From NCBI GenBank assembly GCA_900298995.1, contig OMIC01000026.1, positions 1 to 64,000 of the forward strand: 64,000 nucleotides of DNA. The letters run 5' to 3'. Source of the stretch: Hyphomicrobiaceae bacterium. GTDB lineage: Bacteria; Pseudomonadota; Alphaproteobacteria; Rhizobiales; Aestuariivirgaceae. Each line of letters begins with the position of its first letter. Position 1 is the first letter of the stretch. Made by a program: the position numbers and the translations under genes. Below the pieces are notes generated by a model. It was not told where the DNA came from. It saw nothing but the letters and a program-made list of their open reading frames with translations, and made no database searches. Positions 1 through 44,721 of the stretch are shown here, piece after piece.

Positions 1-237
1 CCAGATGCCCTCGCGATCTCGATGTCGAAACCCCCTGGTGAACATATCACGGGCAAGATTTTTGTGACTGAACTGCTGGGTGGCGACATGATCGTTGACG
101 TTGATCTTGATGACTGCCGCATCAGGGTCAAGACATCGACGGAGTTCGATGGCGTAGAGGGCCAGACGTGCTACATGACGATCAACACGGCAAAGTGGCA
201 CGCATTTTCGAAGGAAAATGGCAAGGCGTTGTTCTAG
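1..237 (+). CDS. ABC transporter ATP-binding protein, C-terminal TOBE-like end (5' truncated by window)
   Basis: Frame is open from base 1 (PDALAISMSKPPGEHITGKIFVTELLGGDMIVDVDL...WHAFSKENGKALF*). Resembles the C-terminal OB/TOBE domain of MalK/UgpC-type ATPases (GxRPdal...; lhlFdkeTGkal). Confidence 0.6.
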   Translation, partial: PDALAISMSKPPGEHITGKIFVTELLGGDMIVDVDLDDCRIRVKTSTEFDGVEGQTCYMTINTAKWHAFSKENGKALF

Positions 238-248
238 AGGGGTGTCTG

Positions 249-584
249 ATGTCTGAAGCAAAGGAAAAACTGGATGGTGTGAACAGCCGTCTCATGGGAT
301 TGTTCAAAGCTGACAAGCAGACGATGATGGCCTTCAACGGCCTCGCAACGGCGGCGACGCGGGCAGGTAAGATATCACCCGCGATCAAGGAGTTGACCGC
401 TGTAGCCATTGCTGCGGCCAAGGGTTGTGAGGATTGCATCGTTTACCACGCGGCAGCCGCGAAGAAACATGGAGCCAGCCGTGAGGAACTTGCTGAAATG
501 CTCGCGGTGACTGTCGAAATGGCCGGCGGTCCAGGTGCGGTGTATGCCGCTAAGGCGCTTGAAATATTTGATCAGCTTACGTGA
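249..584 (+). CDS. Carboxymuconolactone decarboxylase / AhpD-like family protein
   Basis: MSEAKEKLDG...LTAVAIAAAKGCEDCIVYHAAAAKKHGAS; CxxC plus H typical of the AhpD fold. ATG at 249 preferred over the ORF-track start. Confidence 0.75.
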   Translation: MSEAKEKLDGVNSRLMGLFKADKQTMMAFNGLATAATRAGKISPAIKELTAVAIAAAKGCEDCIVYHAAAAKKHGASREELAEMLAVTVEMAGGPGAVYAAKALEIFDQLT

Positions 585-992
585 TCAGCTCGCCCAGAGG
601 TGGATTGAGAGTGAAACGGTTGCCGTTGAGACGAAAGCTGTCAGCGCCGTTCCCCACGCGAGGTCGATCAAGGCTATGCGCGTGGTAAATCCCTTCATGA
701 CCGCGAGGTTTGTCAGATCGTAGGTGCCGTATGCAACAAGTCCCAGAAGTGCACCGTATGTGAGGGCCTGGACGACGGATTGAGACTTTGAAGCTGGCCA
801 TATGACCATGATCATGAGAACAGACACGTAAAGCAGATAGAAGGCTGCCGCCGCGGAGAAATTTGGTGGCTGGCGCAGTAACACGCCGATTTCACTGACG
901 TATATGCTTCTCCCAAGCCACAGCAGCCACACCATGTCGATCAACAGAAAGAGAACTGCCGATATGACCCACAAGCCCGCCCAGTGCAGCAT
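585..992 (-). CDS. DUF2177 family membrane protein
   Basis: 135 aa multi-TM; LLIDMVWLLWLG...YGTYDLTNLAVMKGF...DLAWG pattern. Confidence 0.65.
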   Translation of the reverse strand: MLHWAGLWVISAVLFLLIDMVWLLWLGRSIYVSEIGVLLRQPPNFSAAAAFYLLYVSVLMIMVIWPASKSQSVVQALTYGALLGLVAYGTYDLTNLAVMKGFTTRIALIDLAWGTALTAFVSTATVSLSIHLWAS

Positions 993-1059
993 TTGTCAAA
1001 TCTCCGACTGATCTTGGTACGTCACAGTTCGGCAGGGGATCACCAGCCAGTCCAGATGC

Positions 1060-2271
1060 TCAGGCGACGGCCCTGGCGAGTGCACACTGTGACCACAGTT
1101 CGGACAGCGCATTCACGAGATGATCCATATCGGCGTCGCTGTGAAGGGGGGTCGGCGTAATACGCAGCCGCTCTGTGCCCCGCGGCACGGTAGGATAGTT
1201 GATCGGCTGTATGTAGATACCATGGCGCTCGAGCAGAATATCACTGATCCACTTGCATTTCTTTGCGTCGCCCACGATCACTGGCACAATGTGGGTTGAA
1301 TTCGCCTTGTAAGGCACACCTGCCTGATCAAGTTTCCGGCGCAGTTTTGCCACCCGGTCCTTGTGGCGCAGTCGCTCCATCTCACTCACTTTCAGGTGGC
1401 GGATTGACGTGGCGGCACCTGCAGCAACGGCTGGCGGCAGGGCTGTCGTGAAAATGAAGCCGGATGCGAAGCTTCTCACGAAGTCACAGAGGGCGGCAGA
1501 GCCAGTGATGTACCCGCCAACTACGCCATAGGCCTTTCCGAGCGTACCCTCTATGACAGTGATCCTGCTCATGAGTCCTTCGCGCTCAGCGATGCCGCCG
1601 CCACGTGGGCCATACATGCCTACAGCATGTACCTCGTCGAGGTAGGTCATGGCATTGTAAGCTTCGGCAAGCTCTACGATCTCGCGGATCGGACCGACGT
1701 CACCATCCATGGAGTAAACAGATTCGAATGCTATCAGCTTTGGGCGGGAAGGGTCGGAAGCTTTCAGAAGGCGTTCAAGGTCAGCGACGTCATTGTGCTT
1801 GAAGATATGACGCTCGGCGCGGCTGTGACGAATGCCTTCAATCATTGATGCATGATTTCCCGCGTCCGAATACACGATACAATTTGGCATCGATGCCGCA
1901 AGCGTGCCAAGAGCTGCCCAGTTTGACACATAGCCGGATGTGAAAAGCAGAGCACTCTCCTTGCCATGGAGATCAGCTAGTTCCCGCTCCAATTCAACGT
2001 GATAGTGATTTGTGCCCGAGATGTTGCGCGTTCCGCCTGCGCCTGCACCACAACGATCCAGCGCGTCATGCATGGCAGCAAGTACCTTTGGATTTTGGCC
2101 CATTCCGAGATAGTCATTCGAGCACCAGACGGTGATTTCCTTCTGGACAGCACCATGATGGGTGGCACGTGGAAAAGAACCCTGCCTGCGTTCGAGGTCG
2201 GCAAACACGCGATAGCGGCCCTCGGTTCGAAGTGTCGCAAGCTCGGAGCTGAAGAAAGCCTCATAGTCCAT
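1060..2271 (-). CDS. hemA: 5-aminolevulinate synthase
   Basis: [15 protein letters not shown]...[13 protein letters not shown]...[15 protein letters not shown]...[17 protein letters not shown]...[14 protein letters not shown]. Start set at the conserved MDYEAFF. Confidence 0.95.
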
Positions 2272-2306
2272 TGTGACCTCCACTTTGCTGTGGGTTGGAT
2301 GGCTGG

Positions 2307-3134
2307 TCATGGCGTCAGCCTGTTTGTGTATGCGGTATAATTGAAGTCGTCCGGGTCTGTGTTGCGCAATTTTGCCGCGCTCCGTCTGCGGGGCATGCTC
2401 CACTGCCACAATTTTTCGACAGGCAGCGGAAGCATCAGTAACCAGTGCTCGAAAACTGCAAGACATGCCAGTGCAGCAAGAAGGGAGTAGCCAGCCTTGA
2501 TGGATGGACCTTGCGCGGCAATTGCCTCGCTCAAGAGCAGGACTGCGCCTGCAGTTGCTGCAGTAATGGAAAAGGGAAAAAGCAGGTTCATCGGCTTATG
2601 AGTGAGGAAACTCTTCAGCACAGCCATGTGAGGGGGTACGAATTCCGCACTTACATTACGCACACCGAGAAAGACGTTCAGCCTAGCACTCAGATGCATT
2701 GCCCATAGGAGCAGGTAAGACCACAAGCCCCACTGATTCTCAGATTTCCAACACAGAGCCGCAATTGCCACCGCCCCCAACACGATTGCGATTTCATGCC
2801 AGAGGTTGACAGCGATGGCGTGTCCAAAATGGCGCCATCCTGAGCATGCAGCAGAGCAAGAATGCTTACGAGGTCCGGTAACATAACCCGTATAAAGGCT
2901 TATCTCCTGCCAGCCCCAGGCAATGAGGCCGGCGGTGAACGACGCGTAGACAGCAAAAACAGATCCGTCCGAGGCCGTGAACCATACCGTGAAGAGGGAT
3001 CCTCCCAGCAGTGCTGTTGCCCCAGCCATGCTCCAGCGGAAGGTTTGAACGGGTAGCTGATCAAGATAGAAGATCAGGCCCGTGGCAAACCACCACAGGA
3101 AAAGGGCATAGGCCATTGGCTGGATGAGGTCCAT
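2307..3134 (-). CDS. puhE: Photosynthetic complex assembly protein 2 (PuhE, DUF3623)
   Basis: Multi-TM; [16 protein letters not shown]...LWHEIAI...[20 protein letters not shown]; lies between acsF and hemA as in many PGCs. Confidence 0.85.
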
Positions 3135-3144
3135 CAACCTGCCA

Positions 3145-4212
3145 TTACCAGCTCGGCGCCAGCCGCACGTTGCCCGGCAGGGCATTGGCCTTGGCGGGTA
3201 TCATGTAGAGACGAAGAAATGTCAGCCCAGCAGCCACCGCTGTGCGTAGTTTGCCGATCTTTGCGGTCATGCCACCTTTTTTCTGCCAGACCGCAGCCCG
3301 GTCATTGATTTTGCGCAATCTCTCGAGGCCTGAGAAAAACGCGGGGTTTTCAATGTCGAGCTCCAGCGGGAATACCTGACGGGATATCTCAGAGGTAATC
3401 TTGAAGACCTTGTAGCCATACTCGGTGGGTTCGAGGCCAAGCGCCTCATGAAAATGTGGCCGCTGGTGATCGCGGACATACATGGTCGCAAAGACGGCGA
3501 GCAGGAAGAATTTAACCCACAGCTTGTTCACACCGCTTAGAAGTTCTGGGTGCGCACGCACGAGTAGTGCGAAGGCCTCGCCATGGCGAAACTCGTCGTT
3601 GCACCATTTCTCAAACCACTTGAAGATTGGGTGAATGCGCCGCTCAGGATGCGCCTGGAGATGGCGGAAGATCGTGATGTAGCGGGCGTACCCAATCTTC
3701 TCCGAGAGATATGTCGCATAGAAGATGAATTTCGGTTTGAAGAATGTGTATTTCTTGGTCTTGGTAAGAAAGCCAAGATCAACGCCGATCTTGAAGTCCT
3801 TGAGCGTATCGTTGATGAATCCGGCGTGACGCGACTCGTCGCGGCTCATCAGCCGGAACAACTCGCACATGTCGGGGTTCGAGCCCCGCTTGCGCATCTC
3901 GGCGTATAGAACGCAACCGGAAAACTCTGCTGTGAGTGAACTGACCAGAAAATCGACGAATTCACGTCGCAGCCCTTCAGGGAGACTTTCCAAGGTTACA
4001 TGATCCCACTCGGCATTCCGCTTGAAGTGGTTCTTGTTAGGGTCGCTCTGCATCTCGGCGATGAGGGCGTCCCATTCCTTGCGCACGGGTGTCACATCAA
4101 GCTTGTCGAGCGCCTTGTAGTCGGTGGTGTAGAACCGCGGGCTGAGGACGGTTGACTCCTGTGCCTTTGCAAGGGTGTCTGCGGGCCGAATTCCGATGGT
4201 TTCGATTGTCAT
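3145..4212 (-). CDS. acsF: Aerobic Mg-protoporphyrin IX monomethyl ester (oxidative) cyclase
   Basis: [18 protein letters not shown]...ECx di-iron signature region ([25 protein letters not shown]). Confidence 0.95.
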
Positions 4213-4511
4213 AGTTCTTCCCCAGAGAAGCTGAATTCGAGGAGTTCCATGAACTCCAGGTCACCCGTCAGTTTTACCCATTTTCGCTCAAGCCAGTTTG
4301 CGCGTGTAATGGTAGCCGTTCGCCGTTCAGTGGCGGTTTCACCGTAGGGAACGATGATGGGCTTGCCATGGACGAGCACTTGGTCTCCGGGTTCGACGCT
4401 CACTCCGTCGTCCAGTTCAACATGGGCGGCGAGGCTCTCGAAAGTATTTACAACCCGTACAGTGCACATTACCTGCTCGACGGTTGCGGGGGCAAAGGGA
4501 TTGAGCATCAA
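4209..4511 (-). CDS. Conserved small protein between puhC and acsF (PuhD-position ORF)
   Basis: 100 aa, coupled to acsF (overlap 4209-4212) and puhC (overlap 4508-4511). Confidence 0.6.
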
Positions 4512-4963
4512 CTGTTATCTCCTTTTCCTGGAAGGAAGGTGTTGAAGACCCGGGCGTTGTCCTGGCCGTAGGCATTGAGATCGAGGGTGACCCCCGTCGC
4601 TGTATCCGTCAGAAGCAGTTGACCGTTTTCGAGTTGATCAAGCCGGTAGGCGGCTGCAACATCGCTTGATCCGGTCTTCCGCAGTCTGTTGAGGCCGCGG
4701 ATGACACCTGGAATGAAGCCCTCCCGGCCAGTTGCAGCTATTACTTGACTGGTTTCGGCATCAATCACAGTGATGGTACCCGAGTTGTCCGCTGAAAAAC
4801 GAATAAGCCTGGTGTTCAGGATATCTGATCCTGCGGTGGCCTGTTGGGGTTTGAACCCCGCAAGTCTTGCACCAGCGACCCCAATAAGAGTGGAGACCAC
4901 CATTGCGGCAGCAATGATCGTCGGAAGCTTGGAGCGAAGGGTATGGCCAGAGGCTTGAATCAT
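4508..4963 (-). CDS. puhC: Photosynthetic complex assembly protein PuhC
   Basis: Single N-terminal TM, then LIRFSADNSGTITVIDAETSQVI...GVIRGLNRLRK; order puhA-B-C. Confidence 0.85.
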   Translation of the reverse strand: MIQASGHTLRSKLPTIIAAAMVVSTLIGVAGARLAGFKPQQATAGSDILNTRLIRFSADNSGTITVIDAETSQVIAATGREGFIPGVIRGLNRLRKTGSSDVAAAYRLDQLENGQLLLTDTATGVTLDLNAYGQDNARVFNTFLPGKGDNS

Positions 4964-4964
4964 G

Positions 4965-5621
4965 TCAGGCGGCCGCAGGCCGGGGGTTGTTGAGAACACG
5001 TGGCGTCTCGATAGCCTCCTGCAGCGTGTGTGTTGGCTGACCAGCGAGGGAGGCCGCCAGCTGTGCTGCGACGTTGTCTGCATTCGGTATAGTCCGTAGA
5101 CATGGTTGCGGATGGCGGAAATGGAAGGGCCGGGCATGGGGCCACAACAGGAGGTAGGCTAATCTTTCCTGGGGGGTTACCCTCAAGGGGATATCCCCTG
5201 AGCCATTTCCAATGAGCCGAAGAGATGCGCCGTCGATCTGGCGGAAGGGCAGGTTGATTGTCACTGGAAGAGCCATTCCTATTCGCATCACCACTCGTCT
5301 GGTAGTGATTGTGTAAACGGTCGTGCGGGCACTCAGCCATGCGAGTCCGGCAAGCAAGGTTGCTGCAATGAGACCCATCGGGATAAGCCAGCCAAAGGGT
5401 CGCAGCGCCAGAGTGATGCTGTCTCCTTCCGAGAGCCGGACGGCGGCAGTCATGGCTGCAAGTCCCCCGAAGTACCAGATCACCTTGCGGGCGTGAAATG
5501 CGTGGACGGCAAGATCCTGCCATCTCGGCGCCCCCTGCCACAGCATACGCTCGCCTTGCGGAAGCATTTGCGGGAGACCGCGTACCGGCTCGAAGTCAAA
5601 GTCGTTGTGGTCGTGGCTCAT
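4965..5621 (-). CDS. puhB: Photosynthetic complex assembly protein PuhB (PH domain)
   Basis: MLPQGERMLWQGAPRW...FHARKV...YTITTRRVVMRIGMALPVTINLPF; directly downstream of puhA. Confidence 0.88.
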   Translation of the reverse strand: MSHDHNDFDFEPVRGLPQMLPQGERMLWQGAPRWQDLAVHAFHARKVIWYFGGLAAMTAAVRLSEGDSITLALRPFGWLIPMGLIAATLLAGLAWLSARTTVYTITTRRVVMRIGMALPVTINLPFRQIDGASLRLIGNGSGDIPLRVTPQERLAYLLLWPHARPFHFRHPQPCLRTIPNADNVAAQLAASLAGQPTHTLQEAIETPRVLNNPRPAAA

Positions 5622-6397
5622 ACCAGCGGCTCAGCCCTTTCGGGGAGCGCATAAAGATGGCCACCCGCATAGAATGCGCAAATCTTGTCTTCTTCGAGAC
5701 GTGTCACCACATCGGGGTTACGAATCCCCGGAACCTTCATGAATTGTTTTGAGGTAATGGATTTGACCCCAACTTCACGCCGGGAACCTGAGATCCGCGC
5801 CAGCGTTGTTGGCAGCAGCACATTTCTGCGATTGCCGGCCTTGTCGCTGACTTCAACTTCAAGATAGCGCATGATGTACTCTGCGACATCCACCCATACA
5901 TCTGTTACTTTTCCGCCAATCTTGCCATCAGCACCGATTACGTGCATGCCGCGGGGGTCGGGATCGCGCTCCTCGATATGCCAACCCTCCGTCTTGCGAA
6001 GCGGCACGAGCTTGGGTGTTCCGTGGAATGTTGCGTCTGGAATGTCGAGGCGCTCGGCATAAGCCGCGGGTCCGACGCCATCCACCATTGGGTCACCATC
6101 AGGTTCGAGAGGTGCTCCCGGCCAGGGGCCAATCGGCGTCGCCTTGACAGGCCGGGCATCATAGGGCTCGGCCCGGGGTGCTTGAACCGTGGAACCGTCA
6201 GCCAGCAGGTAGGTCTTCGGGGCGGGGACGGCAGGCCATCCTTGAACGGTGATGTGAGCTGAGCGCTCCGATTCGAGAGGATATCCCTCGCGTTTGTCCT
6301 CGCGGTGAAGATAAATGATGATGAGTGCGAGGAAACCCCAGAACAGATACAGCACCACCTGGGCGACATCGACATATTGGGTGAAGGCTGCGGACAT
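5618..6397 (-). CDS. puhA: Photosynthetic reaction center H subunit
   Basis: MSAAFTQYVDVAQVVLYLFWGFLALIIIYLHREDKREGYPLE...; internal start chosen to match the RC-H N-terminus. Confidence 0.95.
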   Translation of the reverse strand: MSAAFTQYVDVAQVVLYLFWGFLALIIIYLHREDKREGYPLESERSAHITVQGWPAVPAPKTYLLADGSTVQAPRAEPYDARPVKATPIGPWPGAPLEPDGDPMVDGVGPAAYAERLDIPDATFHGTPKLVPLRKTEGWHIEERDPDPRGMHVIGADGKIGGKVTDVWVDVAEYIMRYLEVEVSDKAGNRRNVLLPTTLARISGSRREVGVKSITSKQFMKVPGIRNPDVVTRLEEDKICAFYAGGHLYALPERAEPLV

Positions 6398-6413
6398 GAT
6401 GGCTCTCCTTGGT

Positions 6414-7853
6414 TCAGCCCGGGTATTGTGCCAGGCCAAAACCCGGCAGACGGTTTTTCTGACGATTGCCACCCCGGACCATTGGTCCGATTACGGCGAG
6501 GGTAGCGAACAAAAGTACGATTTCGATTTGATAGACGACGACATAACCACCTGATGGGCCGCTGAAAGCAGCGCCAAGATCGCCGTGCACGGCTAATCCT
6601 GAAATGCCATCCCGCAACATGCCTGAGACACCAACTGCCATTCCTGCCGCTGTTGCCTGAACACCGCCCCAGGCACCCAGAGCAAAACCGCTAACCGCAC
6701 CTGACCCACTTGATGCCAGATCCATGGCGGCCGTGAGCATGCCGACGGAAAACAATCCACTGCCGAGCCCGATGAAGAAACTGCTCGTCTGGAAAACCGC
6801 GGAAAGGTTGAGGAGTGGCGAAAATATAACACCTGCGAAAGCCGCGATGCCAACCAGCAATCCCAACGAAGCAAGTCTGTAGGGGTCTCCTCCACGGCCC
6901 AGTTTTCGTGCGGAGAGCGCAAAGCCGGTGAGTGTGCCGGCTGCGAGAGTCGCAGTGAGCCACGTTGTCTGTCCAACGCTCATCCCGAAAACCTGGCCGC
7001 CAAATGGTTCAAGCAGTATGTCCTGCATGCTAAAGCCAGCCGTCCCAAGGCCGACTGCGACCAGGAGTCGCTTGGCGCGGCCGGCTCTACTGAATGTCTG
7101 CCAGGCTTCTGCAAAGGACGTGTGAGGCAGGGAACGAGAGGTAAGCTTGGGATTTCTGGCCTCTTGTTTCCACATCGCTATGCTGTTCAGGACGACGGTG
7201 ATGACAGCGACGGCCTGGATGATCTGGATCAGTTCGACAGCGGTAAAGTCGCTCAGGAGGCTGCCGAACACCAGTGCGCTGGCAACCATCCCAAGAAGCA
7301 GCATCACATAGAGAAGTGCAACGACCCTTGGCCGCGTGTCATCGCTCGCAAGATCGCTTGCGAGGGCCAGTCCTGCCGTCTGGGTTGTGTTAATGCCCGC
7401 TCCAATCAGTAAGAAAGCCAGTCCTGCACCGATTTCACCCCAGATTGCCGAGCCATGGCCCTGTCCTGTCAGGACAAGCAGCGCAAAAGGCAGAATGGCA
7501 AAGCCGCCAAACTGCATGAGGGTACCGAACCAGATGTAGGGCACTCGCCTCCAGCCAAGAACCGAACGGTGGGTATCAGACTTGAGCCCAATCAGCGCCC
7601 TGAATGGTGCAAAAATGATTGGGAGCGACACCATGAGGCCAACCAGCCAGGCGGGAACCCCCAGTTCAACGATCATCACACGGTTCAGCGTGCCGGTGAG
7701 CAGAACCATGGCCATGCCGACGGAAATCTGGAACAGGGACAGCCGCAGCAGTCGGCCGAGCGGAAGCTCGGTCGTGGCAGCATCCGCGAAGGGCAGGAAA
7801 CGTGGCCCAAGCGACTGCCAGATACTCGAAATGCTGGGTGTCTTCCTGCTCAT
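6414..7853 (-). CDS. lhaA: LhaA, light-harvesting 1 assembly factor (PucC/BCD family MFS)
   Basis: LPLGRLLRLSLFQISVGMAMVLLTGTLNRVMIVELGVPAWLV...FAPFRALIGLKSDTHRSVLGWRRVPYIW; between bchM and puhA. Confidence 0.9.
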   Translation of the reverse strand: MSRKTPSISSIWQSLGPRFLPFADAATTELPLGRLLRLSLFQISVGMAMVLLTGTLNRVMIVELGVPAWLVGLMVSLPIIFAPFRALIGLKSDTHRSVLGWRRVPYIWFGTLMQFGGFAILPFALLVLTGQGHGSAIWGEIGAGLAFLLIGAGINTTQTAGLALASDLASDDTRPRVVALLYVMLLLGMVASALVFGSLLSDFTAVELIQIIQAVAVITVVLNSIAMWKQEARNPKLTSRSLPHTSFAEAWQTFSRAGRAKRLLVAVGLGTAGFSMQDILLEPFGGQVFGMSVGQTTWLTATLAAGTLTGFALSARKLGRGGDPYRLASLGLLVGIAAFAGVIFSPLLNLSAVFQTSSFFIGLGSGLFSVGMLTAAMDLASSGSGAVSGFALGAWGGVQATAAGMAVGVSGMLRDGISGLAVHGDLGAAFSGPSGGYVVVYQIEIVLLFATLAVIGPMVRGGNRQKNRLPGFGLAQYPG

Positions 7854-16470: not shown

Positions 16471-17175
16471 ATGCCTTTTAGATTGTATGCAGCCGGTAGT
16501 TTCGGGGAAATGGAAACGGGCTTGCGAAAAAATGGTCCGGCAGGGGACGAACAGCTGGCGGAAGCTGTTGCGGAAGCGCTCGTCCATGGCCGGGAGGTGG
16601 GTCAGTTGCTTGACGGGTTGACCGCCGAGGCCGCGATGATGGATGTCCTGGCTCCCGCGGCGCGGTTGCTCGGTGCGAGATGGTGTGACGATGAGATCGA
16701 TTTCGTAACAGTCACGATTGCCATGTCCCGGCTGCATCAGACTCTACGGAATCTGCGACTGCCGCTACGTCCGAACAGCATACCGCAAGGCCGCGCGCTG
16801 CTTCTGCCGGTGCCCGGCGAGCAACACAGTTTCGGGCTCCGGCTGGTTGAGGAACTGCTTCGGCGCGATGGCTGGGACGTATTCCTGACGCTTGCGACCA
16901 GCGAGTTCATTCTTCGTGAGCAAGTATCGACACAAAACTATGATATCGTGGGATTTTCGGTATCTGGAGAGCGTCTGATCCCGGCTCTGGCGCAAGCGAT
17001 CCGGATGGTCCGGACCGAGTCGCGCAACCGCAATGTCCGGATCATGACGGGCGGCGTTGTCTTCGCGTCCGGCGCCATCACCGCCGCGCAGATCGGGGCG
17101 GATGCAATCGTGAGCGATGCGCGCGCCGCCGTCGTTCTGGCCAATCGCTGGCTGTCTGTGCTGGAACCCGCATGA
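16471..17175 (+). CDS. aerR: AerR/PpaA-type cobalamin-binding antirepressor
   Basis: B12-binding fold; GEQHSFGLRLVEELLRRDGWDVFL (xHxxG); adjacent to ppsR and bchF. ATG 16471 preceded by AAAGGA; the ORF-track start at 16432 falls in the regulatory palindrome. Confidence 0.85.
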   Translation: MPFRLYAAGSFGEMETGLRKNGPAGDEQLAEAVAEALVHGREVGQLLDGLTAEAAMMDVLAPAARLLGARWCDDEIDFVTVTIAMSRLHQTLRNLRLPLRPNSIPQGRALLLPVPGEQHSFGLRLVEELLRRDGWDVFLTLATSEFILREQVSTQNYDIVGFSVSGERLIPALAQAIRMVRTESRNRNVRIMTGGVVFASGAITAAQIGADAIVSDARAAVVLANRWLSVLEPA

Positions 17176-17215
17176 TCGGTGCTTCCTGCATGCCGGCCGT
17201 CAGAAGGATGTCAAC

Positions 17216-18670
17216 GTGTCACTGAGAAGCGTATCGAACGCCCCGCGGGGGCAGGACGCGACACTGCCGGGCCTTCTGGCCGGGTTGGAAGCCGAGGATG
17301 CGGCAGTGCTGCTCTCGGCTGCTGCCGATATTGCCTTTGCGGTTCAACCGGATGGAGTGATCGCCGGGCGTGTGATGGTCACGGGGCCAGATCTCGGTCC
17401 CGATTCGTTTGCTGTGTGGCCGGGAAAGCCATGGAGCGAGGTCTCCACCATCGAGAGCCGACCCAAGATCGAGCAGATGCTGCAGGAGGCGGCGCTGGGC
17501 CTGCCGCCGCGCTGGCGGCAGATCAACCATCCTCTGCCGGGCGCTCCCGATATTCCGGTGCGCTATTGCGTGCTCAAGGCAGGCACCAAGGGCCATTTTG
17601 TGGCTGTCGGGCGGGAGCTCCGTAATCTCGCCGCCATGCAGCAGAAACTGCTCGCGGCCGAACAGTCGATCGAACTGGAATATGCCCGCCTGCGTCATGC
17701 CGAGACACGTTATCGGTTGCTCATGCAGGTGGCCACCGAGGCGATCCTGGTCGTGGACCAGCGCACCGGGCGTGTCACGGAGGCCAATGCCGCCGCCGCC
17801 ACGCTGATGGGCAAGGCCGCGAAGCGCCTTGCCGGAGCCCAGTTCGCGGGTCTGTTCGACGGCGGCGACGCTGAACGCGTGGATCAGCTGCTGATGGCTC
17901 TGAAGGCGACCGGGCGGGCCGATGACGTGGCGCTGACGCTCGAGGGCGGCCAGCGTCAGGCAGTTCTCTCGGCCACCATCTTCCGGCAGGAGAGCGCCAC
18001 GCTCTACCTCATGCGGCTGCTGCCCATGGCGGCGGGCGCCAGCGGCATCGTGATGTCGCGCGGGCAGGCGGCGGTCGTGAATGCGGTGCGCGACCTCCCC
18101 GAAGCCTTTGTGATTACGGATCTTGAGCGCCGGATCGTCTCGGCCAACCCCGCGTTTCTCGACAGCGCCCAGCTCGGTAGCGAGGAACAGGCGCGCGGCG
18201 AGCCGCTGGAGCGCTGGCTGGGCCGGGTGGGCGTGGATGTGCCCGTGCTGTTCAACAGCCTCGCCGAGAAAGGTGCGGTGCGCCAGTTCCAGACCGTTCT
18301 GCGCGGCCAGTTCGGTGCGGTGGAGGATGTCGAGATCTCGGGCGCGGCCTCGCCGCCCGGCGAGCCCAGCTGCTATGGCTTTTCCATCCGTCGGACGAGC
18401 CGCCGCGCCAGCGAGCCGGGCGATGGCAACCGCAGCCTGCTGCGTTCGGTTGATGAGATGACCAAGCTGGTCGGCAAGGTGCCGCTCAAGGACCTGGTGC
18501 GCGAGGCCACCGACATCATCGAGCGCCTGTGCATCGAGGCGGCGCTGCAACTGAACGACAACAACCGGGCCAGCACCGCCGACATGCTCGGCCTGTCGCG
18601 CCAGAGCCTCTATGTGAAGCTGAACCGCTACGGCATCGAGGAGAGGCCGGACGGCGCTGACGGCGGTTGA
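17216..18670 (+). CDS. ppsR: Transcriptional regulator PpsR/CrtJ (PAS domains + Fis-type HTH)
   Basis: Multi-PAS; C-terminal RLCIEAALQLNDNNRASTADMLGLSRQSLYVKLNRYGI. GTG start at 17216 (VSLRS) inferred. Confidence 0.93.
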   Translation: MSLRSVSNAPRGQDATLPGLLAGLEAEDAAVLLSAAADIAFAVQPDGVIAGRVMVTGPDLGPDSFAVWPGKPWSEVSTIESRPKIEQMLQEAALGLPPRWRQINHPLPGAPDIPVRYCVLKAGTKGHFVAVGRELRNLAAMQQKLLAAEQSIELEYARLRHAETRYRLLMQVATEAILVVDQRTGRVTEANAAAATLMGKAAKRLAGAQFAGLFDGGDAERVDQLLMALKATGRADDVALTLEGGQRQAVLSATIFRQESATLYLMRLLPMAAGASGIVMSRGQAAVVNAVRDLPEAFVITDLERRIVSANPAFLDSAQLGSEEQARGEPLERWLGRVGVDVPVLFNSLAEKGAVRQFQTVLRGQFGAVEDVEISGAASPPGEPSCYGFSIRRTSRRASEPGDGNRSLLRSVDEMTKLVGKVPLKDLVREATDIIERLCIEAALQLNDNNRASTADMLGLSRQSLYVKLNRYGIEERPDGADGG

Positions 18671-28257: not shown

Positions 28258-29583
28258 ATGGCGGGCGGGGGGCTTGGCTGGATCGGGATCGCGCGGCTGG
28301 GGCTCGTGCAGGCTGCCCTGGGCGGCATCGTCGTCCTGACCACCTCCACCATCAACCGGGTGATGATCGTCGAACTGGCGCTGCCGGCCATCATGCCGGG
28401 GCTTCTGGTGAGCTGGCACTACACCCTGCAATTGCTGCGGCCCGGCTGGGGCCATGGCTCCGACCGGGGCGGACGGCGCACGCCGTGGATCATTGCGGGC
28501 ATGGCTGCGCTGGCGCTTGGCGGTTTCGGGGCAGCGCTCGCCGTGCCTGTGATGGAACAGGGATTCGCCGCCGGACTCGCGTTGGCGGTCGTCTCGTTCA
28601 CACTGATCGGTGGCGGGGTCGGTGCGGCAGGCACTTCGCTGCTGGTGCTTCTCGCGCAGTCGGTGGCGGCGGAACGCCGCGCCGCCGCGGCCACCATCGT
28701 CTGGATCCTGATGATCGTGGGATTCATCCTGACGGCTGCGCTGGCTGGTCGGTTCCTCGATCCCTTTTCGCCGGAACGGCTCGTGACGGTTGCGGGCGTC
28801 ATCTGTGCCTCGGCCTTCGTGCTCACGCTCGTGGCCGTGGTGGGCGTTGAGCGCAGCGCGGTGACGGCTCCCGCGCCCGCCGCAAGTCAGCGCGATGTGC
28901 CGTTCCGCGCGGCCGTGGCGCAGGTCTGGGCCGATACGGCGGCGCGGCGCTTCGCCATTTTCATCTTCGTGTCGATGCTGGCCTACAGCGCCCAGGACCT
29001 GATCCTCGAACCCTTTGCGGGTCTGGTCTTCGGTCTGACACCGGGCCAGTCCACCTCGCTCTCGGGCATCCAGAATTCGGGTGTTCTGCTCGGCATGGTG
29101 CTGGTGGGCGCCGTCTCGGCGCGATGGCCTTCATGGCTATCGCTGCGCGGCTGGACGGTGCTGGGCTGTCTGGGTTCGGCATTCGCACTTGCAGGGCTTG
29201 TGGTGGCGGCGCGCGCGGCGCCTGCCTGGCCGCTCACGCCATCGGTCTTTGCCCTTGGATTCTGCAATGGCATGTTCGCGGTGGCCGCCATCGGCTCGAT
29301 GTTCAGCATGGCGGGATCAGGCGAGACGCGCGAAGGCGTTCGCATGGGACTGTTCGGCGCGTCGCAGGCGATTGCCTTCGGGATCGGCGGCTTCGCCGGA
29401 ACGGTTCTTGCCGATGCCGCGCGGCTGATGACCGGCTCGCCGGTCCTGGCCTATGCCGGGGTGTTTGCAATCGAGGCCCTCTTGTTCCTTGCGGCGGCCG
29501 TGCTCGCCGGACGAGGGCCGACCTATGGGGAAACAGCCAACCCGCTGGTTCTGGCGGCGCGGCAACAGGCAAGCGGAGGCTGA
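28258..29583 (+). CDS. PucC/BCD-family MFS transporter upstream of bchP
   Basis: GGIVVLTTSTINRVMIVELALPAIMPGLLVSWHYTLQLLRPGWGHGSDRGGRRTPWI; adjacent to bchP as orf428 in other PGCs. Confidence 0.88.
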   Translation: MAGGGLGWIGIARLGLVQAALGGIVVLTTSTINRVMIVELALPAIMPGLLVSWHYTLQLLRPGWGHGSDRGGRRTPWIIAGMAALALGGFGAALAVPVMEQGFAAGLALAVVSFTLIGGGVGAAGTSLLVLLAQSVAAERRAAAATIVWILMIVGFILTAALAGRFLDPFSPERLVTVAGVICASAFVLTLVAVVGVERSAVTAPAPAASQRDVPFRAAVAQVWADTAARRFAIFIFVSMLAYSAQDLILEPFAGLVFGLTPGQSTSLSGIQNSGVLLGMVLVGAVSARWPSWLSLRGWTVLGCLGSAFALAGLVVAARAAPAWPLTPSVFALGFCNGMFAVAAIGSMFSMAGSGETREGVRMGLFGASQAIAFGIGGFAGTVLADAARLMTGSPVLAYAGVFAIEALLFLAAAVLAGRGPTYGETANPLVLAARQQASGG

Positions 29584-33672: not shown

Positions 33673-35076
33673 TCATTGTACTGGGGCGGTCATGCCGCCC
33701 GATGCCGCGTTGGGGCTTCGAATGAGATGCGTCATCGTTACGATGGCTGCAAGCAGCAGGATCACCTCCAGCCCATAGACGGCGAGATAGGGGACGACGG
33801 TGCTGCCGCCATCCAGCGCGGCCATGCCGTCGCGGATCACCGCACCCAGTGCCACGCCAACCCCTGCCGCCGTGGCCTGCACCGCGCCCCATGCGCCAAG
33901 GGCCAGCCCGCGCTGATCTTCGGGCGCATGACTCATCGTGGCGGTGAGGGTGCCGTGTCCGAAGAGGCCGCCGCCGAACCCGATCAGCAGCGTGCCAAAT
34001 CCGAACAGGAGTGGCGAACCCAATGGCGCGGCGGCCATGATCAGAATGAAGGCCGGAACGCCAACCATCGCGCCAAGCGAGGCCATGCGGAACGGGTCGA
34101 AGCCGCGGCTCAGCACATAGGAGGCGAGGCTGAAGCCCAGCAGGCCGCCGCCGGCCATGGCTGCCGTCAGAACGGTCGTGCGCGATACGGCGAGGCCCAG
34201 AACCTGGCCGCCATAGGGTTCCAGCATGACGTCCTGCATGCTGAAGGCGAGGGTGCCCACCCCCACCGCGACGAGCCGGGCGAGGGCCTTGTCGCCCGCG
34301 ATGAAACAGGTCCAGGACTCCTGAAAGCCTGGATCGGCGGACGCAGCGGCAGGACGATGCGCGGTGCCCCGTGCCTCCTGCTTCCAGACGGCGATGCCAT
34401 TGAGCAGCACGGTGAGGACACCAGCGCCCTGGATCACCTGGACCAACCGGCCGTGCGAGAAATTGACCAGAAGTGCGCCGAAGATCAGCGCGCTCACGAT
34501 GGAGCCGAACAGAAGCGCCACATACATGAGTCCGACGACGTTGGGCTGTTTTTCGGGGGGCGTCAGATCCGTGGCAAGCGCCAGTCCGACTGTCTGGGTG
34601 ATGTGCAGCCCGGCGCCCACGAGTAGGAAGGCCGCCGCCGCTGCCACCTGGCCGACCCAGGCGGGAACCTCGGCGGCATGGCCCTGCCTTGCGAGCACCA
34701 GCAGGGCGAAGGGCATCAGCGCCAGCCCGCCAAACTGCACCATGGTGCCCTTGTAGATGTAGGGGACGCGTTTCCAGCCCAGTTCCGAGCGGTGCGTGTC
34801 CGACTTGAAACCCACGAGTGCCCTGAAGGGCGCAAAGACGAGCGGCAGCGCCAGCATGATTGCCACCAGCGAGGCGGGCACGTGAAGTTCGACGATCATG
34901 ACGCGGTTGAGTGTGCCGACCAGAAGCACCAGGGTCATGCCGGCGGCAACCTGGAAAAGCGACAGGCGCAACAGGCGGCCGAGCGGGACATCCGCGGTCG
35001 CGGCGTCGGCGAAGGGCAGGTACCTGGCTCCAAGCCCGGCCCAGGCCCGCATTACGCTCTGGCTCATTCGGTTCAT
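33673..35076 (-). CDS. pucC: PucC light-harvesting 2 assembly protein (BCD family MFS)
   Basis: Close paralog of lhaA in this window; immediately downstream of pucBA. Confidence 0.9.
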   Translation of the reverse strand: MNRMSQSVMRAWAGLGARYLPFADAATADVPLGRLLRLSLFQVAAGMTLVLLVGTLNRVMIVELHVPASLVAIMLALPLVFAPFRALVGFKSDTHRSELGWKRVPYIYKGTMVQFGGLALMPFALLVLARQGHAAEVPAWVGQVAAAAAFLLVGAGLHITQTVGLALATDLTPPEKQPNVVGLMYVALLFGSIVSALIFGALLVNFSHGRLVQVIQGAGVLTVLLNGIAVWKQEARGTAHRPAAASADPGFQESWTCFIAGDKALARLVAVGVGTLAFSMQDVMLEPYGGQVLGLAVSRTTVLTAAMAGGGLLGFSLASYVLSRGFDPFRMASLGAMVGVPAFILIMAAAPLGSPLLFGFGTLLIGFGGGLFGHGTLTATMSHAPEDQRGLALGAWGAVQATAAGVGVALGAVIRDGMAALDGGSTVVPYLAVYGLEVILLLAAIVTMTHLIRSPNAASGGMTAPVQ

Positions 35077-35262: not shown

Positions 35263-35565
35263 CTACTTCGTCAGGATCGCCGTGCTGTCCTCGAGCGAGG
35301 CCAGCTTGGCGTTCGCATCAGGCGCCACCGTCACGGTGATGACATAGCCCTGATCCGTCTTCGTGACGTTCGAGGCCACGGGAGCAACCGTGGTCTCAGC
35401 CGAAGCCGCTTTCGCAGCCGCGCCGCCTTCGAAGAATTTTCCCACCCAGGTGGAATGCGTCATCACTGACGCATGCACCACCAGCGACGTCACCGCGACG
35501 CCGCCGATGAACAGCGGCAGGCCGACGGTGGGGTTCACGACGCACCAGATTCTTCCTTGGTTCAT
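35263..35565 (-). CDS. pucA: LH2-type light-harvesting protein alpha subunit with long C-terminal extension
   Basis: [40 protein letters not shown]... matches the LH2 alpha N-terminus and H31 BChl ligand; residues ~49-100 form an extra tail. Confidence 0.9.
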
Positions 35566-35577
35566 GTCATGTACCTC

Positions 35578-35733
35578 CTAGTGCAGCCACGGCGAGTAGA
35601 TGTACGCCAGCAGATGGGCAAAGAGGGCAATCACGAAGAACACTCGCGCGCCGTCGATGACGTGCTTGTGCAGCTCTTCTGATTCCCTGATGGTGAGGCC
35701 GGTGGGCCACACCCTGTTTGGATCGTCTGACAT
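35578..35733 (-). CDS. pucB: LH2-type light-harvesting protein beta subunit (51 aa, absent from ORF track)
   Basis: Translated by hand: [51 protein letters not shown]; canonical LH2 beta. Confidence 0.95.
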
Positions 35734-35843
35734 CTAGCTTTTACCTCCAGAGTTAGACCAGTTCCGTGCTGGACCCGCACGCAGGTTTCTCGTCATTTCA
35801 TCAACAACAAGACTCATTTTGGTGCTACGCACCTTCCTTCCCC

Positions 35844-36899
35844 TCACGGGTTGGGAACCGAAAGTTCCGGATACTCCTTCGCCATGCTGAAGCCGTAGAG
35901 CGGCTTGTTCACGCCCTGGTGGCAGGTGGCGCAGTTGACCTTGAGGACGTCGCCCTCGGGTCCCTTGCGGTTTGCCGGAAACACATTCGTCAGTGACTCG
36001 AGATAGGTGTGATTCAGATCGCCCACCATCTTCAGTCCGTGCCAGGCGGTGACACGCTGCGGGCGGCTCTGCTCCCAGCTGCTGAACTGACGGGAGTTGT
36101 GGCAGAAGGTGCAGTTGACGCCGAGCGCCGTCGAGAGATGCATCATGAGGGCGTAGGTCTTCTCCGTGTCCTGGATCGACCGGCCGGTACCGCCGGGAAG
36201 TGCGGTCGCGGCCACCACACGAATGTTGGCGCCTGGCTTGAGGAGCGTCGTGAACGGATCATAAGGCAGGGAGGCATAGGCGGGCACACGCTGACCGCCG
36301 ACATTCTGGCCATTTCGGCTGGCGGCCATGCCGCCTGCCTGCTTCGGTCCAGGGTTGGTGGCCCAGACATTGGCCGGTACAGGCTGACCCCGGTGGCAGG
36401 TGTAGCAAGTGACGCCCGTCGCCTGGACGTGACTCTTGTGCTGAGTGTTGATGGCCTTGGTCATCTGCAGCATCCGCCGGGCCACGACCTTGGTGTAGAG
36501 CTCATCCGAGGCCATGTTCTCGACATTGTGACAATAGGCGCAACCGGCGTTGTCACCCTCCTGCGGAGCCACCCAGGTCGAGATCGAGTTCATGAGGCGG
36601 TTGAATTGCGCGGTGTCGAGATCGCCGAGCACCTGCACGTTCTTGTAGTTTTCCGTGTCGTCCTTGACGAGCACGCCGTCGTTGTCGACCGGATCGTCGG
36701 GGACGGGCGCCTTGTTCAGGGCGGCCAGCATTTCCGCGCGGCGTGGATTGGTGATCTGCTCCATGCCAAGGCCACGGTAGCCCAACTGCTCCGAGTGCAT
36801 CGGCGGGCGTTCCCACTGCAGCATCATGGGGATTGCCAGCAGCACCACGATGACGGTGCCAAGGAGGCCGGCGGTGAGGGCGGAGGCGGAAATCTTCAT
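35844..36899 (-). CDS. pufC: Photosynthetic reaction center tetraheme cytochrome c subunit
   Basis: Four CxxCH motifs (CAYCH, CYTCH, CTFCH, CATCH); downstream of pufM. Confidence 0.96.
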   Translation of the reverse strand: MKISASALTAGLLGTVIVVLLAIPMMLQWERPPMHSEQLGYRGLGMEQITNPRRAEMLAALNKAPVPDDPVDNDGVLVKDDTENYKNVQVLGDLDTAQFNRLMNSISTWVAPQEGDNAGCAYCHNVENMASDELYTKVVARRMLQMTKAINTQHKSHVQATGVTCYTCHRGQPVPANVWATNPGPKQAGGMAASRNGQNVGGQRVPAYASLPYDPFTTLLKPGANIRVVAATALPGGTGRSIQDTEKTYALMMHLSTALGVNCTFCHNSRQFSSWEQSRPQRVTAWHGLKMVGDLNHTYLESLTNVFPANRKGPEGDVLKVNCATCHQGVNKPLYGFSMAKEYPELSVPNP

Positions 36900-36912
36900 C
36901 GCGTGGCCCCTC

Positions 36913-37887
36913 CTATTGTGCGGCCTGGGCCGGGTCGAGAACCGGCGCTGTGAGGTCGAGCGGATACATGGGTGCAACACCGTGCTTCACGGCCCAGAGA
37001 TACCAGTTGTCGACCACGGTCCCGGTGAGCAGGATGCCGATGCCACCGACGAGCGGGCAGAGCACCGCGAACCACCAGGCCCAGCGATGGATGGATTCCA
37101 TCGTGGCGTTGAAGCCCATGGTCCAGCGCCAGAACAGCGCCGCACGCTCGGATGCCGTGCCGCGATCGATGATCTGCTCGATTTCACGCTCGCCGCCCAG
37201 CCGCGAGACAGCCAGGATCGTCGCGCCATGCATGGCGAAGAGCAGCGCCGATCCATAGAGGAAGGCGATCGAGAGCATGTGGAAGGGGTTGTAGAAGAGG
37301 TTGCCGTAGCGGATCGAGAAGGCCGCCGTCCAATCGAGATGGGGGAAGATGCCGAAGGGCACGGCTTCCGAGAAGTTGCCCAGCAAGAGCGGCCGGATGA
37401 ACCCGAGAACCAGGTAGAGCCAGATCGCGGCAGCAAAGGCCCAGGCGATGTGCGTACCCATGCCGAGTGCGCGGGCGCGGCGGTATGTGCGCAGCCACCA
37501 CAGCAGGATCGAGGCGGTGAGGAAGAAACCCGCCATCTGCCACCAGCCGCCCTCGCGCAGCGGCGCAAGGCTGAGCCCGTATTTGGCGGGTGGCGGCTCA
37601 AGTCCAAGCCAGAACAATTGCCGCACGAATTCGATGGGGCTCCAGTTCACCGAGGCCAGCATGTTGAGGCCGATGATCTCGATGGCGATGAAGCCGCAGA
37701 GAAGCGACGCGATGCCAAGTCCGCCGAGATAGATTGGGCCAACCTGCGCGTCGCCGATGAGCCCCAGCAGCCAGTTGGTCGTGGTGACGTTCTCGCGCGA
37801 CCAGTTGCCGGGCTTCATCGGCACGCCCATGTCGGCGGGACCGTGGACCTGCACGCGGGTGAAGATGTTCTGATATTCGTACATCAT
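36913..37887 (-). CDS. pufM: Photosynthetic reaction center M subunit
   Basis: [29 protein letters not shown]...; RC-M family. Confidence 0.97.
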
Positions 37888-37905: not shown

Positions 37906-38730
37906 TCATGACCAAATCGGCAGGTCGAGCCACCAGTTCCACCACTCGGGCCAGCCCCGCGTCCAGAACGGTCCGCTGATGACGATGCAGACGGCGCTGA
38001 AGAATACCGCGCCAAGTGCGAGGAACAGGCCGAGGCGGTGAATGCCGAGCGTGCCGATCGAATAGCCAATGTGATCGCGGAAGAAGCTGTTCTCGTGCTC
38101 GGCCGTCTTGACCGTCTCGCCCTTGGGCGGATTTGTGGCCGACAGCACAAGGCCGCCATGCATGGCCAGCGCAAGGGCTGTCGTGAAAAACAGCGTGATG
38201 GCGATCATGTGCGCCGGATTGTAATGGAAATGGAGGTACTGGTAGCCGACGTTCGACACCCAGTCGAGGTGGCTGATGATGCCATAGGGGAAGGCGTGTC
38301 CCCAGGCACCGAGCAGGACGGGGCGGATGATCTCCAGCGTCACGTAGGCGAAGATCGCGAAAGAGAATGCGACAGGCACATGCAGTCCAATGCCGAGCTT
38401 GCGGCAGATCTCGACCTCGCGGAGCGCCCAGCTGATGAAGGCACCGGTGGCGCATACAGTGATGATCTGCCAGAGCCCGCCCTGCTTGAGCGGCGCCAGC
38501 GCCAGACCGTAGCTGAGGTCGGGCGGTGCGATGTTGATCTGCCAGAGATTCCAGGTCGGGCCGATGGCCGCTGCGTAGACGATGAGCGCGGTGCCCAGCA
38601 GCGTGAAGAAGGCTGTCGTGACACCGAAGAAGCCGACATAGAAGGCGCCGACCCAGAAATCGAACAGGTCGCCGCCGATCAGGGTTCCGCCGCGGACGCG
38701 GTACTTCTTTTCGAAACTGAGCATTGCCAT
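37906..38730 (-). CDS. pufL: Photosynthetic reaction center L subunit
   Basis: [37 protein letters not shown]...; RC-L family. Confidence 0.97.
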
Positions 38731-38839: not shown

Positions 38840-39022
38840 TCAGCCGATCATCTCGCTGACAGTCACATCCAGGCTTGCAGCCTTCTTCACGCCACCTTCC
38901 AGCCAGTTGAACCGGTCGGTGGAGAGAAGGATGAAGTGGATGACGAGAGCGAGCACGAACAGGAAGGTGGCCATCGCCACCAGGGTCCTGCGGGGATCGA
39001 ACAGAAGCCACATGCGCCACAT
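38840..39022 (-). CDS. pufA: LH1 light-harvesting protein alpha subunit
   Basis: [43 protein letters not shown]. Confidence 0.96.
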
Positions 39023-39034
39023 GATCTATCCTCC

Positions 39035-39253
39035 TTACGTGAACATCGACGTGAGCTGGTTGAGAACCGGCGTCAGGTCGGTGCTCTCATAGCCATTGGG
39101 TCCGGGGATCCACGGGCGCCATTGCCAGGCAAGAAAGTGGGCGACAACCGCCACCAACGTGAAGGCAATGAAGCTCGTTACGAAGATCCCATGGAACTCC
39201 TTGGCTTCGGCTTCGGTCAGGCCGGAAATGCCTGACCCTCTGTTATCGGCCAT
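39035..39253 (-). CDS. pufB: LH1 light-harvesting protein beta subunit (extended C-terminus)
   Basis: [72 protein letters not shown]. Confidence 0.95.
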
Positions 39254-44677: not shown

Positions 44678-44695
44678 TGTAAGCTTACTCTTACA
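44678..44695. promoter_or_regulatory. PpsR/CrtJ-type box 1 upstream of bchC
   Basis: TGTAAGCTTACTCTTACA (TGTAAG/CTTACA). Confidence 0.8.
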
Positions 44696-44703
44696 CTTTA
44701 ATG

Positions 44704-44721
44704 TGTCAATAGGAACGTACA
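44704..44721. promoter_or_regulatory. PpsR/CrtJ-type box 2 upstream of bchC
   Basis: TGTCAATAGGAACGTACA; 26 bp centre-to-centre from box 1. Confidence 0.75.

Follow-up and report, generated by a model that had tools for sequence, protein, structure and literature searches.

In this work we have analysed a 64-kb stretch of DNA (hereafter the window) and found that its pucA gene (35263–35565, minus strand) encodes an LH2 alpha polypeptide of 100 residues with phenylalanine at both position 44 and position 45. PucA would be part of a working LH2-type peripheral antenna which lacks both C3-acetyl hydrogen-bond donors and has no Tyr41 to substitute for them. The band of its coupled bacteriochlorophyll pair, normally at about 850 nm, would then lie at about 800–810 nm and merge with B800, giving a B800-only, LH4-like complex. 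By analogy with PucD-LH2 of Rps. palustris, we put the probability of such a merged band at roughly 0.58.

The identity of the gene is clear. PucA scores 39.3 bits with the Pfam LHC profile (PF00556; cut-off 23), has the His31 ligand and an MNQ N-terminus, and is paired with a beta gene, pucB (35578–35733, minus strand, 51 residues, also a Pfam LHC match), which lies directly upstream. The pucA reading frame is intact, and codons 44 and 45 (35431–35436, minus strand) both read TTC. The original prediction, an ungapped reading of the letters, had given H31, W40 and the F44/F45 pair; alignment with the solved LH2 alphas of the PDB, ungapped over residues 1–55, confirmed all of these and places no donor at alpha-44 or alpha-45. 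It had mentioned neither the minus strand, nor a C-terminal extension of about 50 residues, nor Val41, the last of which matters for the spectrum. Residues 26 and 27 are Thr and Ser. A whole-genome search found four LHC genes, a pair for LH1 and another for LH2, so that pucA is the sole LH2 alpha gene of this genome, which belongs to the Aestuariivirga group and is 99.36% complete. The named records nearest by PucA include Aestuariivirga, and the plasmid records searched with PucA gave no match. A genome placed in the window's genus, G001, encodes a PucA identical to that of A. litoralis KCTC 52945, which assigns the window to Aestuariivirga in the GTDB sense. PucA is an ordinary purple-bacterial antenna gene, and its FF state is already known in other bacteria.

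What would the absence of both donors mean for the spectrum? In a comparison of nine LH2 structures, absorption lies at about 850 nm where there are two C3-acetyl bonds, at about 825 nm where there is one and at about 800 nm where there is none, and the loss of the alpha-44/45 bonds accompanies the blue shift of B850 across the structures compared (PMC9618040). In the standard B800-850 complex both of these alpha positions are donors (Y/W/Y), and PucA with F44F45 falls outside this type. The usual donors have been lost, and a shift of B850 to the blue is therefore well supported. The further step of the original prediction, from F44F45 to a B800-820/830 complex, stands on weaker ground, since the 820-nm band of LH3 is accompanied by one remaining bond, from alpha-Tyr41 (PMC9618040), where PucA has Val41, and since PucD-LH2 absorbs at 803 nm and Bradyrhizobium BTAi1, which of the F44F45 relatives with a published spectrum is the closest, is listed with one peripheral band at about 800 nm.

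The PucD-LH2 complex of Rps. palustris (LH4, PDB 7ze3), whose B850 pigments receive no such bonds and whose only band lies at 803 nm (PMC9618040), contains the best PDB match of both polypeptides. Its alpha reads V41-A-K-F44-M45, whereas that of the window reads V41-G-K-F44-F45, so that both lack a donor at alpha 41, 44 and 45, the hallmark of the PucD type; both also have a short N-terminus. The beta C-termini are nearly identical and share AYxYSPWLH, and since PucB is so closely PucD-like here a donor from the beta polypeptide is unlikely. There are also differences. PucD has M45 and M26/V27 in place of F45 and T26/S27, its alpha has 59 residues and lacks the long extension, and it belongs to a multigene family and is made at low light, whereas pucA is a single copy within a puf run. 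The gamma polypeptide of PucD-LH2 had no match here when the published repeat alone served as query, a search which had no positive control. As the LH4 signature of the Rhodopseudomonas scheme (M26, F44, M45) is not that of PucA (T26, F44, F45), we call PucA LH4-like rather than a member of LH4, and Thr26 counts against a merged band.

The LH2 alpha of Bradyrhizobium BTAi1, which is 63% identical to PucA, shares with it F44F45, T26, S27 and a C-terminal extension, and is likewise encoded by the lone LH2 pair of its genome. It differs in having M41 instead of V41, and its pucBA genes, which are controlled by a bacteriophytochrome, are not adjacent to puf in their 12-kb locus, whereas those of the window follow pufC. 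Jaubert et al. in 2008 reportedly observed a single band at 803 nm for this LH2. A review lists BTAi1 with LH1 at 870 nm and a peripheral complex at 800 nm; for the latter it cites a study of 1990, and the value could include absorption by the reaction centre.

A complex which is blue-shifted but keeps a separate second band at 815–830 nm, as in LH3, is a possibility that we hold only tentatively. It draws on the same residues: PucA has F44 and a non-donor at 45, as does the LH3 of Rbl. acidophilus 7050 (B800-820, PDB 1ijd), and in the Rhodopseudomonas scheme F44 combined with M45 or F45 is assigned to LH3, which would include PucA. The LH3-type alpha of the gammaproteobacterium Pseudohaliea rubra has F44F45 and S27, as PucA does, and absorbs at 804/821 nm, and a Rba. 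sphaeroides double mutant at 44/45, which lost both bonds and has alpha-Ser27, absorbs at 826 nm (PMC9618040). These two spectra count against a merged band and, with the filing under LH3, keep the B800-820/830 assignment in play. However, the acidophilus LH3 retains the hydrogen bond of Tyr41, which in PucA is Val41, and Tyr40 of P. rubra (Y40 M41) might itself be a donor. Two strains in which genes with F44 and M45 or F45 are expressed showed the authors of the scheme no distinct peak at 820 nm, and the nearest relatives of PucA by sequence, PucD and BTAi1, are single-band. For the LH2 of PDB 8z81 (Y41/F44/F45) our literature search found no spectrum. We regard it as very improbable that other donors, either a beta Trp or Tyr or Ser27 acting on the C13 keto group, hold the band near 840–850 nm. 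A beta-Trp does act as donor in Phs. molischianum (PMC9618040) and Ser27 is present in PucA, but PucD has the same beta C-terminal motif and yet no bonds, and Ser27 also occurs in BTAi1 and P. rubra, both of which are listed as blue-shifted.

The extension of PucA (residues 49–100; 35266–35421, minus strand) contains a motif, APVASNV.KT..GYVITV.V.P, which we recognized by alignment with 22 relatives. Within the genus this motif is conserved under purifying selection, with a dN/dS of about 0.15 compared with about 0.08 for residues 1–40 and 0.82 for the last stretch. In the alignment the extensions of BTAi1 and other relatives are longer and contain a similar strand-like stretch once or twice, and such motifs, sometimes doubled, were seen in PucA of BTAi1 and of Hyphomicrobium-like and Acetobacteraceae genomes. 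AlphaFold2 with 23 sequences gave just a weak hairpin (mean pLDDT 60), and we claim no fold for the extension. It might be asked whether F44F45 reflects the decay of a dispensable or unexpressed gene instead of tuning, since several other genomes of the genus have LH1 genes and no detected LH2 match, but we give this next to no credence in view of the intact frame, the low dN/dS of core and motif, and the restriction of position 44 to F or Y and of position 45 to F or W, even though TTC and TGG are two steps apart.

All genes of the run to which pucA belongs lie on the minus strand, in the order of a bchC/X/Y/Z-like run, a short ORF, pufB (LH1 beta, 39035–39253; Pfam LHC, start from ORF choice), pufA (LH1 alpha, 38840–39022; Pfam LHC, 63 bits), pufL (37906–38730), pufM (36913–37887), pufC (reaction-centre cytochrome subunit, Pfam CytoC_RC; 35844–36980 as ORF, although the true start may be 36899), pucB, pucA and pucC (LH2 assembly protein of the PUCC/MFS type, 33673–35076; Pfam PUCC, 484 bits). 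The bchC/X/Y/Z genes and those for the reaction-centre L and M subunits were named from the look of their sequences and their position, the order around pufL and pufM being conserved in the genus, whereas family searches confirmed bchN and bchF, which lie elsewhere in the window. Two more PUCC-family genes (6414–7853, minus strand; 28258–29583, plus strand) are also present, one probably encoding an LH1 assembly factor and the other a homologue related to pigments. The pucBA pair immediately follows pufC in ten genomes of the genus, that of the window included. According to a 2025 review, the LH2 genes of aerobic anoxygenic phototrophs lie mostly outside the photosynthesis gene cluster, Limnohabitans being a notable exception. 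Another close arrangement of puf and puc was seen in the Gammaproteobacteria MAG IP29b_bin.12, where a stretch of about 8 kb (94–7629) contains both pufM-pufC-pufBA and pucBA-pucC.

This gene order suggests that the bchCXYZ-puf-puc run would be expressed as a whole, the antenna together with LH1 and the reaction centre, and that the antenna would not be under separate bacteriophytochrome control; no phytochrome (PHY) domain was detected in the genome. Between 35000 and 36000 we found no promoter- or terminator-like site, which weakly suggests co-transcription. The gap between pufC and pucB contains a leader hairpin, CGTGC-GGGTCCA-GCACG (35765–35781, minus strand). All ten pucBA-carrying genomes of the genus have it in front of pucB, with the consensus CGTGC-RGGKNCA-GCACG. 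It has no Rfam match, and its stem is invariant within the genus, so that covariation is uninformative. Similar stems, CGTGC(G)...(C)GCACG, also precede pucB in four other loci (L036, L042, L043 and L057). Sites of the PpsR type (TGTN12ACA) number 16 in the window compared with 6.5 expected, two of them just upstream of the bchC-like gene (44678–44695 and 44704–44721), and a PpsR-like regulator of the PAS/Fis type is encoded at 17117–18670 (plus strand). The site at 35715–35732 probably arises merely from the codons of pucB, since it overlaps the first codons of pucB and is missing in five of the ten genomes, in which pucB begins with ATGGAC or ATGGCA.

The F44F45 pair is common, also in named species. 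Among 75 distinct alphas, a sample biased by search patterns which included PucA's own TWVGKFFE and MNQGRIWC, FF was the commonest pair (33), followed by YW (22) and FW (8). Ser27 occurred in 31 of the 33 FF alphas and in 11 of the 22 YW alphas, as raw counts that ignore relatedness.

We find the variation within the genus more interesting than FF itself. The ten genomes with pucBA show four pairs at positions 44/45 (FF in four, YW in three, FW in two and YF in one). We placed these on a tree for which PucC, PufC, PufM, PufL and a bch protein were used and PucA was excluded, and inferred six changes of the pair, or five if weak branches are resolved otherwise. Shuffled labels gave a mean of 5.4 changes, and as the observed count is no fewer than this, the states are not clearly patterned by inheritance. 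In two sister pairs with good support the partners differ, G012 (FW) from G013 (FF) and G011 (YW) from G027 (YF). Could positions 44 and 45 be evolving faster than their neighbours? We dropped this idea because changes are about as frequent at positions 36, 38, 41–43, 46 and 48; the residues around 44/45 are a variable stretch in which these two are restricted to aromatics, and not a unique hot spot. Recombination between species could be the source of the pattern, and residues 36–53 are identical between G001 and G034. Perhaps the repeated switching among FF, FW, YW and YF in a single-copy, puf-adjacent LH2, on a near-constant background, is a species-by-species tuning of the spectrum which replaces the multigene tuning of Rhodopseudomonas, although we would rather doubt this than assert it.

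Taken by itself, pucA is one more blue-shifted antenna in a known class. F44F45 without Tyr41 nevertheless distinguishes the rule that no bond gives 803 nm from the rule that F44 gives 820 nm, and the literature conflicts for exactly the FF pair. Relatives differing mainly at residues 36–48 supply the YW, FW and YF partners for that test and, if the spectra follow, the genus would be a natural test series for the two-, one- and no-bond rules.
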